DNA from: Nocardiopsis salina YIM 90010
Lineage (GTDB): Bacteria > Actinomycetota > Actinomycetes > Streptosporangiales > Streptosporangiaceae
Direction of reading: 5' to 3'
NCBI RefSeq assembly: GCF_000341025.1
Contig: NZ_ANBF01000049.1
Coordinates: forward strand, 27,671 to 65,090
Length of the DNA: 37,420 bases
Shown here piece after piece: positions 19,042 to 23,546 of the stretch; position 1 is the first letter of the stretch; each line of letters starts with the position of its first letter. The notes beneath the pieces are model-generated. The model was not told the DNA's origin and did not search any database. It worked only from the letters and a program-made list of their open reading frames with translations. The position numbers were made by a program, and so were the translations under genes.

Positions 19042-20063
19042 TCACGCCCGCCCCACGACCGGCGCCGACGGTGCGCGGCGGAACAGGAAGAGCCCGTACT
19101 GGGCCTCGGGGTCCAGCCACCGGGCCCGCAGCCCGAAACCGTGTGCGCCGACCTCGCGGGCCAGCTGTTCCTCGGTGAACTTCGCGGAGTAGCCGACGTT
19201 GACGGACCTGCCGCGCGCCAGGTGCAGCGTGAGGCCCAGACCCGGCACGGGCACGGTGCGGCCGGCCCGAGCGCGGAGATGCCCCTCCACGGTGGACGTG
19301 TCCTCGTTGTAGAAGGCCTCCGGAACGAAGTCGTCGAGCACGAAGCCGGCGCCGTAGCGGCTGTTGAGCCGGGTGAGGTAGTTGAGGCGGAAGTCTGCGA
19401 AGGCCGAGTGGCCCGGTGGATCGTTGTAGCAGGTCTCCAGGGTCTCGCGGTCCTTGTCCAGGTCGGCGGAGACCAGGAACCCTTCACCCGGGCGCAGGCA
19501 GTGCGCGATCCTGCTGAGCAGCCCCTCGCGTTCCTCGCGTGTGGCGTTCGCGAAGCTGCTTCCGAGGAAGGCCACCGCGAGAGGCCCCCGGTGTGTGTAC
19601 GCAGTCGCTCCAGCCCTGCTTCGTAGCTGCCCCACAGCCCGGCCACCTCCAGGCCGTCAAGCTCCGCGCACAACGCGGCGCCGCTGGAACGCAGCATGCT
19701 CCGGTCGACGTCGATCGGAAGGTACGTGGTCGCACGCAGGCGCAGACAACTCTCGAGGAGCAGCCTCGTCTTCTTGGCGCTCCCGCTGCCCAGCTCCGCG
19801 AGCTGCTCACAGGCGAGCAGTTCGGCGATCTCCTCGGAATGGCGCTCCAGCAGCCTCCGCTCCACGCGGGTCAGGTAGTACGTCGGCAGCTCGGTGATCT
19901 GTTCGAACAGTTCGGAACCGAGTTCGTCGTAACCGAGCCAGGGTCGCAACCAGGGCTGGGTCTGCTGCAGGCAGTCGCGAACGACAGCGCTGTCGCGCAG
20001 GGCGTCCTCCCTGTCGGCGAGCGGCAGGACGCGGGCCCGTGCAGCGGAGTCCGGTGCGTTCAC
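19042..20063 (-). pseudogene. EgtD-like SAM-dependent amino-acid N-methyltransferase, frameshifted as sequenced
   Basis: The two halves lie in different frames. From GTG 20063 the first frame gives the N-terminal EgtD features GYDELGSELFEQITELPTYY, then ELGSGSAKKTRLLL (SAM loop) and TTYLPIDVDRSML. It continues to about 19590. The second frame resumes with PLAVAFLGSSFANATREER and reads to 19042, ending in WLDPEAQYGLFLFRR. The switch falls exactly at a run of five C's on the plus strand (19585-19589); adding one G to the minus-strand run restores a ~340-aa protein. It is either a real loss of function or a sequencing/assembly slip. EgtD trimethylates histidine in ergothioneine synthesis, but relatives use other amino acids and no egtB/egtC is visible here. 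The start overlaps the previous stop (GTGA), making this the last gene of the CDGSH/HDO operon. Confidence 0.82.
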
Positions 20064-21058
20064 GGAATCCTCACATCCCGGACCTCGCGGAAGCTCGACT
20101 CGCCGCGGCCCCAATGGTGCAGCATGTGCTCCTCCGTCCGGGCCCCGAGGAACGTACTGCCGCGGATCCCGAAGACGAGGTCGGAGGCCGAGTCGGGCTC
20201 TGCCTCCAACAGAGGTGCGATCACCTCGCGCCGCACGAGCTGTTCGTGCACCGCGTCGGCCTCGACGTGCTCGGCGTAGAACCGGATGGCTGCCGGGCCG
20301 CAGCCCAGTCTCCGCATGGCCTTGACCAATCGGTCTGACCCCGGTGACGACGTGAGCTCGATGGTCGCGAACTGTCCGATCAGCGCCGCACGCGAGGCGC
20401 GGTGCAGCCCGCACCACGACATGAAGTTGACCTCGGCCAGCATCTCGGCAGGTGCGGAGTCGAGATAGGTGCCGTACGCCGGGGACAGGTCCAGTTCGAG
20501 CATCATGTCGGCGAACAACTTGGCGTGCGCACGCTCGGGATCTCCCGCACCGTACTCGTCGTGCTGAACCGTCACGAGGGCAGTTTTGGCGGACCCGTCC
20601 AGCCGCGGGATGACGAAGGACTGCGGGTCGGCCTCCTTCAGGTGGTACAGCGAGCGGTGAGCGACGTATTCGCGCAGTTGCCACAGTTCTCCGTGATGCC
20701 GCAGGTGGTGGGAGACGCCGTACGCATCGACGTGTTCGACGAGGAGGGCGTCGAGCTCGCCCCGGACGTCCGCGCCGGCGGGTACGTCGTTCCTGAGGGC
20801 GTCGACGAAGACCCTCTCCAAGTCGCCGCGGAGCGCGATCAGGGCCGGGTCCCACTCGCGGTCGGGGTCGACCTCCCGGAAACCGCGGTAGTGGAGTTCG
20901 TAGCAGCAGTAGAGCGCCAGTTGCAGGTCCTCGCCGTAGGGCGTCGACCCCTCCACGGCCGGCGGCACCGTCCGGTCCCCGCGGAGCGCGGACAGGACCG
21001 CCTCGGAGACCGGGCCGCGGGGCATCGGAAGCGCCGGTGCTTCCGGGGTGGTGGTCAT
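20060..21058 (-). CDS. Iron-containing redox enzyme family protein (haem-oxygenase-like di-iron oxidase/oxygenase)
   Basis: 332 aa of mostly helical sequence. Candidate metal ligands occur in the order expected for haem-oxygenase-like di-iron proteins (HDO). REYVAHRSLYHLKEADP is Glu130/His134. VQHDEYGAGDPERAHAKLF is His166/Glu168/His178. EHVEADAVHEQ is Glu263/His264/Asp268/His271. Such proteins use Fe(II) and O2 for N-oxygenation, C-C cleavage or desaturation of small amino-acid-like or fatty substrates. The reaction here cannot be read. ATG 21058 overlaps the CDGSH stop (ATGA), and its own stop overlaps the EgtD-like start. The coupling to an iron-sulfur protein suggests the latter is its electron donor or iron partner, which is inference. 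Confidence 0.87.
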   Translation of the reverse strand: MTTTPEAPALPMPRGPVSEAVLSALRGDRTVPPAVEGSTPYGEDLQLALYCCYELHYRGFREVDPDREWDPALIALRGDLERVFVDALRNDVPAGADVRGELDALLVEHVDAYGVSHHLRHHGELWQLREYVAHRSLYHLKEADPQSFVIPRLDGSAKTALVTVQHDEYGAGDPERAHAKLFADMMLELDLSPAYGTYLDSAPAEMLAEVNFMSWCGLHRASRAALIGQFATIELTSSPGSDRLVKAMRRLGCGPAAIRFYAEHVEADAVHEQLVRREVIAPLLEAEPDSASDLVFGIRGSTFLGARTEEHMLHHWGRGESSFREVRDVRIP

Positions 21059-21270
21059 GGATCGTTCTCCTTCCCCACGTCGTCGCGTACACGGCGGCGA
21101 TGGCTGGTGTCGCAGAAGGGGCGGCGGCGACTGCGTCCACAGGCGCAGAGCGCGGTGACAGCCCTGTCGCTGTGCACGTGTGTTCCGTCGGGCATCTCCA
21201 CGTCGACCGGGCCGTGGACGAGGATCGGTCCCTCGCCCGTGACGACGACCCGGCGCCGGTCCTCAGCCAT
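21055..21270 (-). CDS. CDGSH iron-sulfur domain protein
   Basis: A 71-aa protein, almost only the domain. The CDGSH signature is CACGRSRRRPFCDTSH: Cys42, Cys44, Cys53 and His57 are the 3Cys/1His ligands of a 2Fe-2S cluster, with T in place of the G of canonical CDGSH. The first half is a small beta unit (RRVVVTGEGPILVHGPVDV) common in bacterial members. ATG 21270 lies within the end of the upstream methyltransferase gene (8-nt overlap). It is probably a cytoplasmic redox partner for the haem-oxygenase-like enzyme encoded next. Upstream in-frame codons reaching 21384 belong to the overlapping methyltransferase gene and are not used. Confidence 0.88.
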   Translation of the reverse strand: MAEDRRRVVVTGEGPILVHGPVDVEMPDGTHVHSDRAVTALCACGRSRRRPFCDTSHRRRVRDDVGKENDP

Positions 21271-21925
21271 GACGCGCCTCGATGACCACGAGGTCCTCCT
21301 CCAGCTGATCGGGGCCGAGCAGCCCCCTGGCGCGCAGGTCCGGGGCCCGCGCCCGCAGGACCGGACCGAACGGCACACGCGCACGTCGGACCACCTCGGG
21401 GACCAACCCGGCCTCCTCGAACCTCTCCAATGTGATCTGCTCGTCGGAGAGGCCGGAGTGCACGAGCAGGAGGGTGCCGTCCTCGTCGAGCACCGACGGA
21501 GCCCCCGCGCAGATGCGGTCGATCAGGACCCTCCCGTCCGGTCCCGCGTCCCAACATCTCGCCATCCTGTGGCGGGACGGCAACAGGCCGGCAGCGGGCA
21601 TGTAGGGCGGGTTGGCGAGCACCAGATCGAAGCGTTGCCGACTCACGGGCGCGAACAGATCACCGCGCCGGACCATCGCCGGCACACCGTGCAACCGGCT
21701 GTTGAGCCAACTCGCCAGGACCGAGCGCAGCGACAGGTCGATCGCGGTGAGGCTGGAAGCGCCCGCACGGAACGCCTCGATGCCCAGCGCCCCGGTTCCT
21801 GAACCGACGTCGAGGACCGAACGGCCGGTGACCCGCCCCTGTTGGCCGCGTTCACGCAGGACGCTGCGGAGCAGGGAAGTGTCCTCCTGAGCCCGGTATA
21901 CCCCCGGTGGCCTCACTAGCAGCAT
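21263..21925 (-). CDS. HemK2/MTQ2-type SAM-dependent methyltransferase
   Basis: About 220 aa. The SAM-binding loop is VLDVGSGTGALGIEAF (about residues 37-52). The catalytic NPPY motif is in LVLANPPYMP (about 101-110), which marks methyltransferases acting on planar nitrogens, such as HemK/PrmC on glutamine or N6-adenine enzymes. The compact one-domain size with N-terminal RPPGVYRAQEDTSLL fits the MTQ2/HemK2 group. ATG 21925 has AGGGGG 5 nt upstream; GTG 21931 is an alternative. It is the first gene of a four-gene overlapping operon. Because a release-factor methyltransferase would normally sit with prfA, a small-molecule or dedicated protein substrate within this cluster is more likely, as inference. 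Confidence 0.85.
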   Translation of the reverse strand: MLLVRPPGVYRAQEDTSLLRSVLRERGQQGRVTGRSVLDVGSGTGALGIEAFRAGASSLTAIDLSLRSVLASWLNSRLHGVPAMVRRGDLFAPVSRQRFDLVLANPPYMPAAGLLPSRHRMARCWDAGPDGRVLIDRICAGAPSVLDEDGTLLLVHSGLSDEQITLERFEEAGLVPEVVRRARVPFGPVLRARAPDLRARGLLGPDQLEEDLVVIEARHG

Positions 21926-21975
21926 GGCCACCCCCTACCCGAGCTCCGAACCGACCAATCCGGAACTGCGATGCG

Positions 21976-22010: not shown

Positions 22011-22142
22011 CCCAGTAAGACACGGGAACGCGCCAAGCACGGCGATGTCGACGCCATCGCGGCCTGTCTGCCGGGGCGCGACTCCGGTCACGCCTCGGGG
22101 ACGGACACTCTCGTCGACGGCGGGGCGGTCGCTCCGAGCGGG
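22011..22142 (+). pseudogene. Relic of the C-terminus of a short-chain dehydrogenase (SDR), antisense to the end of the Sir2 gene
   Basis: Reading the plus strand in the frame of 22032 gives HGDVDAIAACL followed by GHASGTDTLVDGGAVA (22086-22133). This is the standard C-terminal helix and GTDxLVDGG tail of SDR enzymes. No SDR body precedes it: stops and loss of similarity occur upstream. The frame ends at a TAG near 22164. The relic overlaps the last ~18 codons of the Sir2 gene on the other strand. It is called from motif recognition only. Confidence 0.55.
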
Positions 22143-22999
22143 GTCGGGTCGGCCGGCTGCCCGTAGGAGGACGCGAGTGCACGCAGCACCTCCGAGCACC
22201 CCGCGTCGACGGTGAGCGCGGCCAGCTCGTCGCATCTGGTCTCTCCCCGGTTCAGGATCACCACGGGCTTGCCCTGCTGGGCGGCGCGCTTGACGAAACG
22301 GCGACCGGAGAAGACCGTCAACGACGACCCCGCCACCAGCAGGCCCCGCGCCTGCTCGACCAGGTCGTAGACCTCCTCGACCCGCGGTTTGGGCACGTTC
22401 TCCCCGAAGTAGACGATGTCGGGCTTCAACATGCCCCCGCACGCGGCGCAGTCGGCGACCCGGAAACCCTCGGTGGAGGCGAGCACAGCGTCGGCGTCCG
22501 GCGCGAGCTCGATGTCCTCGACCGTCACGGAGAAGTGCGGGTTCAGCTCCGCGAGGCGTCGGTCCAGACTGCTACGCGAGGTGACCTGGCGGCATTCGAG
22601 GCAGATGACCCGGTCGTAGCGCCCGTGCAGGTCGACGACGCAGCGGCTGCCCGCGAGCTCGTGCAGGGTGTCGACGTTCTGGGTCACGACGGCCGAGACG
22701 GCCCCGGCCGACTCGAGGTCGGCCAGAGCGCGGTGCCCGTCGTTGCACTCGGTGCGTTCCATGTACCGCCAGCCCACATGGTTGCGCGCCCAGTAGTGGC
22801 GGCGGAAGGCGTGGTCGCCCACGAACTGCTGGTAGGTCATCGGGTTGCGCGGCGGGGAGTCGGGGCCGCGGTAGTCCGGGATGCCGGAGTCGGTGGAGAT
22901 CCCCGCGCCGGTCAGCGCGAGCACCGGACCCTCGCCGAGGGTCGCGCGCACGCGTTCTGCGATGGCGGTCGGTTCGCCGGCGTCGAGCTTTTCGGTCAC
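22088..22999 (-). CDS. Sir2-family NAD-dependent protein deacetylase (sirtuin)
   Basis: About 303 aa. NAD-binding motifs: LALTGAGISTDSGIPDYRG (about residues 28-46) and VVTQNVDTLHELAG (about 104-117). The catalytic His is in VVDLHGRYDRV. Zinc cysteines are CLEC and CAACGG, in a class II/III-like arrangement, followed by KPDIVYFGENVP and AGSSLTVFSGRR. Sirtuins remove acyl groups from lysines and form O-acyl-ADP-ribose; in actinomycetes they oppose PatA-type acetylation of acyl-CoA synthetases. GTG 22999 lacks a Shine-Dalgarno site but has TACCCT ending 6 nt upstream, a leaderless arrangement. The last ~18 residues are encoded over an antisense SDR relic, so this tail is probably not conserved. 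Confidence 0.92.
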   Translation of the reverse strand: MTEKLDAGEPTAIAERVRATLGEGPVLALTGAGISTDSGIPDYRGPDSPPRNPMTYQQFVGDHAFRRHYWARNHVGWRYMERTECNDGHRALADLESAGAVSAVVTQNVDTLHELAGSRCVVDLHGRYDRVICLECRQVTSRSSLDRRLAELNPHFSVTVEDIELAPDADAVLASTEGFRVADCAACGGMLKPDIVYFGENVPKPRVEEVYDLVEQARGLLVAGSSLTVFSGRRFVKRAAQQGKPVVILNRGETRCDELAALTVDAGCSEVLRALASSYGQPADPTPLGATAPPSTRVSVPEA

Positions 23000-23005
23000 G
23001 CCCCG

Positions 23006-23011
23006 AGGGTA
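23006..23011 (-). promoter_or_regulatory. Putative -10 element of the leaderless Sir2 gene
   Basis: TACCCT on the minus strand fits TANNNT and is separated from GTG 22999 by 6 nt. There is no ribosome-binding site. Confidence 0.4.
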
Positions 23012-23186
23012 CGTGCCCGCGCCGACCCGCCACGGATGGCCGTCCCCGAGGAGCACGTGACACGTGCCGGGTACGGGGGTGCGGGGAACGCACGCGGCCT
23101 GTGCGGGTGGGTACGCCTTGAGGCCGGCGTTGCCGGTCGGGGGAGTGCGCAGGGCCGGTGGTTCCGATGGCGCCGTGTGTGGTCGG

Positions 23187-23546
23187 TCAGTTGAGCAGTT
23201 CCTGCCAGTTCTGCGGGACCTTGCCCTCGGGCCCCGGAACCGGCTGGTCCTCCGGCCGGTTCGCGGGAGGCGCCAGGTCGGGCCCGAGCCCGAACCCGTC
23301 CGATCGGAAGTCGTAGAACCAGTCCTCGTCCGGCTCGAAGCTCTGCACGAGCGGGTGCGAGGTCTGTTCGAAGTGGCGGCGCCCGTGCTGCCCCGGGGAG
23401 GTGTCGCAGCACCCCACGTGGCCGCAGGAGGCGCAACGGCGCAGATGGACCCACCAGCCGTCCTGCGCGAGGCATTCCTGGCATCCGGTCCCGCTGGGAT
23501 GTGCCGCCGGATCGATGGGCGGGGTCCGGTCTCCGGGGTCGCTCAT
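23187..23546 (-). CDS. UBP-type zinc finger domain protein
   Basis: A 119-aa protein with the UBP/ZnF-UBP pattern. CQEC (Cys22/Cys25), RRCASCGHVGCCDTSPGQHG and RRHFEQTSHPLVQSFEPDED supply the zinc Cys and His ligands in the usual spacing. In eukaryotes the fold binds the C-terminus of ubiquitin; in bacteria stand-alone copies have no established role. The C-terminal ~35 residues are Pro-rich and end VPQNWQELLN. ATG 23546 is preceded by TAGCGT at 6-nt distance, suggesting a leaderless mRNA. It lies upstream of the Sir2 gene on the same strand, 187 nt away. Confidence 0.9.
   Translation of the reverse strand: MSDPGDRTPPIDPAAHPSGTGCQECLAQDGWWVHLRRCASCGHVGCCDTSPGQHGRRHFEQTSHPLVQSFEPDEDWFYDFRSDGFGLGPDLAPPANRPEDQPVPGPEGKVPQNWQELLN

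Follow-up and report, generated by a model that had tools for sequence, protein, structure and literature searches.

We analyzed a 37,420-nucleotide (nt) stretch of DNA from Nocardiopsis salina YIM 90010 (genome of 5.8 Mb in 272 contigs), hereafter the window. On its minus strand, a gene encoding a HemK2/MTQ2-type S-adenosylmethionine (SAM)-dependent methyltransferase (MT) is followed by genes encoding a CDGSH iron-sulfur protein, a haem-oxygenase-like diiron enzyme (HDO), and a relative of the methyltransferase EgtD. The conserved core of this cluster is the three-gene set MT-CDGSH-HDO. The first-pass annotation, which described a four-gene unit, was right about the chain, and the unit is conserved, but its EgtD-like member is an accessory confined to certain lineages. 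With slightly better than even confidence, we read the set as a general-stress module in which an N-oxygenase-like HDO, served by the CDGSH protein, would act on a small substrate resembling an amino acid.

Searching 101 genomes of the order with the HDO returned 58 close and seven distant relatives. Of the close HDOs, 56 of 58 had a CDGSH gene within 3 kb (median gap, 95 nt), compared with none of the seven distant ones. The association was equally tight when viewed from the CDGSH side: of 70 domain matches in these genomes, 12 fell in six large two-domain proteins and 58 were single-domain, 56 of which adjoined a close HDO. The two exceptions were G091, where the HDO gene is on a different contig, and G051 (locus L202), where MT and CDGSH are adjacent and HDO was not detected in the genome. 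The two-domain open frames, of 600 to 750 residues and unlinked to HDO, were G003:C24, G009:C11, G035:C35, G060:C24, G078:C3, and G081:C1. MT relatives (E≤1e-15) were near HDO in 25/26 cases and near CDGSH in 26/26, although an MT at this threshold was present at just 25 of the 58 loci with a close HDO, the distant half of the group having no recognized MT.

Thirteen further genomes of the order share the full four-gene arrangement, and in one of them (G062) a contig edge falls inside the fourth gene; because of this recurrence the chain is not a chance arrangement. The worry that the genes might be neighbors only in this strain therefore falls away, and the co-occurrence that the first-pass annotation suggested looking for was found. 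Beyond the order, a scan of named genomes confirmed at least 532 relatives and kept 80 loci, or 77 once three duplicates were removed (L095-L097, the same genomes as L040, L048, and L046). These duplicates are absent from the promoter, HDO-ligand, and triad counts and remain within the 138-locus neighbor and motif counts and the first promoter test. Within 3.5 kb of HDO, CDGSH was present at 70/77 loci, MT at 67/77, and both at 64/77, in several gene orders, and a CDGSH motif lay within 4 kb of HDO at 129/138 loci. In a class-wide sample, close HDOs (E≤1e-40) occurred in 176/345 genomes and 52/126 genera, including the group without a recognized MT. A set of distant HDOs (L066-L091; 39 to 47% identical) has approximately 1 kb between HDO and CDGSH and, in some loci, a different methyltransferase upstream; the intervening gene gave one weak glycosyltransferase match, below cut-off.

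In two loci, CDGSH and HDO are fused in frame, as a 424-residue protein in L102 (a Pseudonocardiales metagenome-assembled genome, MAG) and a 467-residue open frame in L215 (G305), both Pfam domains scoring above cut-off in each. Linkage also persists through rearrangement and splitting: in all four Streptomyces genomes whose HDO has neither partner nearby, MT and CDGSH are still together at another site. The near one-to-one adjacency within the order and the two fusions come close to establishing CDGSH as a partner of HDO. The first-pass annotation had cast it as electron or iron partner of the oxidase; the partnership holds, and it would serve electron transfer from CDGSH to HDO.

The earlier family labels for the NPPY methyltransferase, CDGSH protein, and HDO were borne out by their TIGR00537, PF09360, and PF14518 scores. 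HDO residues E142, H264, D268, and H271 were present in 135/135 aligned rows and E168 and H178 in 134/135; this six-ligand set (three His and three carboxylates on the core helices) aligns with those of SznF and RohS. Position 175, a candidate counterpart of the extra glutamate ligand of the SznF type (3H/4C), is E in 81/135 rows and D in 36/135. The predicted fold is haem-oxygenase-like and helical, and the nearest solved structures by both sequence and predicted fold are the N-oxygenases HrmI, SznF, and RohS. Since its nearest relatives are N-oxygenases, the HDO may well perform N-oxygenation. CDGSH/NEET proteins carry a redox-active [2Fe-2S] cluster, and the motif C-x-C-x2-S-x3-P-x-C-D-x-S-H keeps the four cluster-ligand positions (three Cys and one His). 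In MT, N107, P108, P109, and Y110 are invariant in 38 rows. The enzyme shares TIGR00537, the NPPY motif, and the closest fold with HemK2/MTQ2 (its predicted model is nearest to human N6AMT1/HEMK2) and differs in being linked to HDO and CDGSH.

Promoter sequences suggest that the module is under general stress control in many lineages, though not in every one. GGGTAG (once GGGTAA) lies 9 to 10 nt before the MT ATG in 16/16 Nocardiopsis-type loci (L042 counted by eye), with a GNNT element 14 to 16 nt further upstream in 15/16; the sequence beyond is not conserved, and in the window the MT mRNA is probably leaderless. This resembles the Streptomyces coelicolor SigB consensus GNNTN-N14-16-GGGTAY as quoted in passages of PMC5402319, except that the last base is G (once A) rather than Y. 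Passages of PMC8346170 include GGGTAG -10 elements among promoters of S. coelicolor SigB homologs, and the SigF consensus given for Mycobacterium smegmatis in part of PMC7693655 is similar to the SigB type. SigB/SigF-type sites preceded 67 of 219 module gene starts compared with 24 of 944 controls (Fisher p 4e-33, uncorrected for relatedness among the rows, with at most two starts per locus and control starts taken from a crude composition-based gene caller; in GCS2-linked loci, described below, the site may fall within the terminal part of the preceding gene). An earlier test on 250-nt stretches gave 71/188 vs. 43/931. Sites were present in 15/16 Nocardiopsis-type loci and in 13/16 other loci of the order with 51 to 58% HDO identity. 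The whole window had no excess of SigB-type sites (5 found, 4.46 expected); the promoter evidence therefore rests on position and conservation. Stress-type regulation is in part well supported, and these putative promoters would be the sites used. The N. salina genome encodes nine SigBFG-family matches, two above cut-off. On contig C115 (locus L035; HDO 78% identical) the four genes occur a second time, and approximately 1 kb upstream of this copy is a SigBFG-like sigma gene scoring 191.7 bits, below cut-off and truncated by the contig start. In three scanned loci of genus f6/g34, described below, genes for CsbD, Mn-catalase, hemerythrin, and the SigB-type regulators STAS and RsbU/SpoIIE lie near the module.

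A mycobacterial counterpart may already be documented. In one genus (f6/g34), probably Mycobacterium, all five loci have the layout MT, CDGSH, and convergent HDO, and three of them have a SigB-like site directly before MT or HDO. In M. smegmatis, MSMEG_1771 is listed as a methylase and MSMEG_1772 and MSMEG_1773 as conserved hypotheticals in the relevant passages of PMC4694148, where expression of all three drops steeply without sigF (log2 -6.17/-5.69, -5.91/-6.43, and -5.98/-4.09, respectively), a strong SigF dependence. The promoter reported there is 29 nt from MSMEG_1771 and 696 nt from MSMEG_1772; the first gene is therefore approximately 667 nt long, compared with 668 in L217. Like the module, this set has the methylase first, then a short gene, and a separate SigF-like site for the third gene, as far as the passages describe it. 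All three genes were upregulated in spray-dry-cycled log-phase cells in a section of PMC5445863, and MSMEG_1773 also features in part of PMC7390352. By this analogy we infer that MSMEG_1771-1773 would be the module.

The EgtD-like gene adjoins the module in 15/15 copies among the 101 genomes and is intact in twelve other loci of the order. Thirteen relatives and the N. salina genome, the latter twice, encode proteins at least 73% identical to the L040 copy, always beside the triad; the other EgtD-family matches among those listed were at most 40% identical. The triad occurs without it at a single Nocardiopsis-type locus (G068). In Saccharopolyspora (L098 and L105) and two Pseudonocardiales MAGs (L102 and L108) it precedes MT, and in Pseudonocardia endophytica an 81-codon remnant without a Pfam match follows HDO (L104:8002-8247), itself followed by a frame that we take to be integrase-like. 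Four intact relatives scored 240.3, 237.1, 250.2, and 255.2 bits against TIGR03438, below its cut-off of 290.9; the window gene was scanned in two pieces. Canonical EgtDs have M252 and E282 in 17/17 sequences (M. smegmatis numbering), whereas cluster copies have G (15/16) or A (1/16) at position 252 and G at 282 in 16/16, sharing PF10017, N166, Y206, Y39, and Y56 with EgtD. Rows under 230 residues are left out of these counts, among them both fragments of the window copy and of L035, as well as L037; duplicates L095, L097, and L180-L187 stand outside the 16 and L175 outside the 17. Read against the L040 alignment, the C-terminal piece in the window has G at both positions. Cluster copies form a clade separate from canonical EgtD (SH-aLRT, the Shimodaira-Hasegawa-like approximate likelihood ratio test, 100; 33 rows).

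As judged from the subthreshold scores and the loss of M252 and E282, the predicted enzyme is not EgtD, and the loss of both residues makes it probably not histidine-specific. An engineered EgtD M252V/E282A is said to have its activity shifted toward tryptophan, which makes a substrate other than histidine likely, although our literature search found no such report. The earlier EgtD-like label survives at the level of PF10017, not at that of TIGR03438, the pocket residues being lost and the gene broken in the window. Ergothioneine synthesis was rejected as the role of the cluster: egtA, egtB, egtC, and egtD lie together elsewhere in this genome, on contig C58 (the egtA match covers only part of its model), M252 and E282 are lost, and, as first noted from the window, egtB and egtC are absent, none of the loci that bear an EgtD-like gene matching EgtB or EgtC at E≤1e-5. 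EgtC-like proteins (28 to 31%) do occur near HDO in L142, L151, L152, L158, L166, and L169, loci without an EgtD-like gene; that of L166 is a class II glutamine amidotransferase by Pfam. An EgtB-like protein (33%) was found in one locus lacking the EgtD-like gene.

Other neighbors vary. A GCS2/YbdK-type carboxylate-amine ligase is encoded near HDO in 20/138 loci (L050, L053, L058, L120, L168, and others; three members checked against family models), ending within approximately 90 nt upstream of HDO in 13 of the 20, hinting at further variable small-molecule steps. A short-chain dehydrogenase gene closely follows CDGSH or HDO in L054, L056, L060, L062, L064, and L109 (L054 and L109 checked by Pfam). 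Streptomyces neighbors, namely an ABC transporter and what are presumably Ppx/GppA-like and protease-inhibitor-like proteins, were discarded as functional partners, being mainly confined to one lineage.

We propose that a SigB/SigF-family sigma factor would start transcription just before MT, and that the CDGSH [2Fe-2S] protein would act as a dedicated electron donor or iron-sulfur partner of HDO. The HDO diiron site with O2 would then oxidize, most likely N-oxygenate, a small amino-acid-like substrate, and the HemK2-type enzyme may N-methylate the HDO substrate or product. In some lineages, the EgtD relative, with its altered non-histidine pocket, could methylate an alpha-amino group. Survival of drying or oxidative stress might be aided by the product or by the oxidation as such. 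Small-molecule chemistry is plausible. The substrate and the order of steps are proposals of ours, as is the protective role, which we derive from the promoters, some neighbors, the SigF data, and the analogy with DtpC. A bolder version is rather less likely than not: the small CDGSH protein would donate electrons to HDO, a kind of partner described in none of the papers searched, and the module would yield a stress-induced N-oxygenated and N-methylated amino-acid metabolite (a betaine in some lineages), making it a second, ergothioneine-like protectant system found across Actinobacteria and so far overlooked in the mycobacterial SigF regulon.

Several observations weigh against a stress module of this kind. 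The triad is missing at 13/77 named loci: in four Streptomyces loci HDO has neither partner nearby, and a contig edge is close to the end of some of the remaining loci. At L142, HDO has MT next to it, but the two CDGSH genes of that genome are at other sites and lack a neighboring MT; in G091 the CDGSH gene is away from HDO and likewise without MT. Promoter sites were found in only 3/26 loci of the distant group of the order, 23/54 of the mostly Streptomyces group, and 8/23 named loci outside that group; stress control is therefore not universal, or takes other promoter forms. The stress-gene neighbors come from three loci seen without a control set. MSMEG_1771-1773 match the module by layout, not sequence, and the published M. 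smegmatis promoter sequence occurred in 0/396 genomes searched. According to passages of a recent review, the HDOs investigated so far do not require a protein effector (PMC13108848). The closeness of MT to HEMK2/N6AMT1 fits a protein target equally well, and the substrate and product of HDO are ones that we infer.

Of the alternatives, a direct protector comparable to DtpC, an HDO of Acinetobacter baumannii, fares best, and we consider it unlikely. Here, a CDGSH-fed HDO would remove peroxide or O2 or guard iron with no dedicated metabolite, and MT would modify a protein. The SigB-type sites and the stress-gene neighbors in three scanned loci suit this idea, as do passages of PMC13232832 in which DtpC protects dried cells, limits H2O2, and needs its metal ligands. 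The likeness to DtpC is by description, not sequence, however, and the nearest structures to the module HDO are N-oxygenases; the altered EgtD-like pocket and the GCS2 ligase likewise point to small-molecule chemistry. Both proteins tie an HDO to stress survival, but the passages pair DtpC with the catalase KatE, with no CDGSH protein or methyltransferase there.

Less likely again is a natural-product pathway of the kind proposed by the first-pass annotation, making an oxidized, methylated amino-acid compound and not primarily serving stress. HDOs, N-methyltransferases, and members of the EgtD family commonly act in tailoring, and pathways of this type use HrmI, SznF, and RohS according to sections of PMC13108848. 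Clustering of genes within 5 kb, however, revealed no peptide synthetase or other biosynthetic gene recurring across lineages except the GCS2 ligase, although an ABC transporter gene recurs in one Streptomyces lineage; both the spread of close HDOs over 52 of the 126 genera and the stress-type promoter sites argue otherwise. A protein- or RNA-modifying system, with MT and HDO acting on one macromolecular target and CDGSH as redox relay, is highly doubtful, since HDO groups with small-molecule N-oxygenases and the EgtD-like partner keeps the alpha-amino-acid-binding residues N166 and Y206, even though the fold and family of MT are closest to a protein methyltransferase, HEMK2/N6AMT1.

Table 1. 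Features of the cluster in the N. salina window (positions of the window)
Feature	Position	Strand	Details
MT: HemK2/MTQ2-type SAM methyltransferase, NPPY motif	21263..21925	-	ATG start 21925; TIGR00537 94.6 bits, above cut-off of 87
CDGSH iron-sulfur protein, single domain, 71 residues	21055..21270	-	PF09360 62.7 bits, above cut-off
HDO: haem-oxygenase-like diiron enzyme	20060..21058	-	PF14518 185.9 bits; ligand set E142 E168 H178 H264 D268 H271
EgtD-like methyltransferase, N-terminal part, first frame	19587..20063	-	PF10017 positions 4-130
EgtD-like methyltransferase, C-terminal part, shifted frame	19042..19599	-	PF10017 positions 135-303; motifs VEGHLRAR, VNVGYSAKF
Frame break inside EgtD-like gene	19587..19599	-	Two halves in different frames
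Putative SigB/SigF-type promoter, GATT-N16-GGGTAG	21935..21960	-	Ends 9 nt before MT start codon

The overlap chain described by the first-pass annotation is exact at 8 nt for MT/CDGSH (21263-21270), 4 nt for CDGSH/HDO (ATGA, 21055-21058), and 4 nt for HDO/EgtD-like (GTGA, 20060-20063), all on the minus strand, but the fourth gene is frameshifted and not one open frame (Table 1). In 14/14 Nocardiopsis-type loci matched by a regular expression (16 tried), the CDGSH stop lies inside ATGA or GTGA. The PF10017 match of the window EgtD-like gene falls in two pieces of approximately 138 bits each. The C115 copy is interrupted at the matching position, where the assembly contains an N, and a third copy, in G062, is split across two contigs at this site; three of 15 copies in the order (window, L035, and G062) are thus broken, cut, or contain an N at codons approximately 157 to 169, which suggests a hard-to-sequence stretch. 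Given this coincidence, the frame break in the window is probably an assembly fault. A hairpin was dismissed as its cause, there being no excess folding (z 0.39, 0.16, and 1.38), and no RNA element in the window exceeded its gathering score. Just upstream of the module on the same strand are a Sir2-family deacylase gene (22088-23056) and, preceding it, one for a small zf-UBP protein (23187-23546). The pair was set aside as operon members, as neither is beside the module in relatives; the sole SIR2 trace was a short 70% stretch approximately 10 kb away in L088.

The module HDO is only approximately 20% identical to the N-oxygenases HrmI, SznF, and RohS, and differs from them in its CDGSH pairing or fusion, its link to a HemK2-type methyltransferase, and its SigB-type promoter sites. 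The excerpted passages of the HDO review make no mention of CDGSH (PMC13108848). A precedent for a redox partner dedicated to an HDO is the pair MboA-MboB, described in sections of PMC13185094 as perhaps the first of its kind. MboB, by that description, is an NAD(P)H-using reductase with flavin and an Fe2S2 cluster, whereas the module partner is a 71-residue CDGSH protein; with MboB preceding it, we dropped the idea that CDGSH is the first iron-sulfur partner of any HDO. In agreement with the earlier statement that no pathway with this combination had been described, no paper on MT, CDGSH, HDO, and an EgtD-like enzyme together was found in the open-access literature. The parts are of known kinds, and what appears to be new is the pairing and fusion of CDGSH with HDO together with stress-type promoters.

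The proposed stress module would provide a concrete functional guess for hypothetical genes of an actinobacterial stress regulon. The CDGSH-HDO pair, found even as a natural fusion, would be a ready system for asking how HDO enzymes obtain electrons, and the accessory gene would supply a natural variant of the EgtD family in which the glutamate that binds histidine is missing from the pocket.

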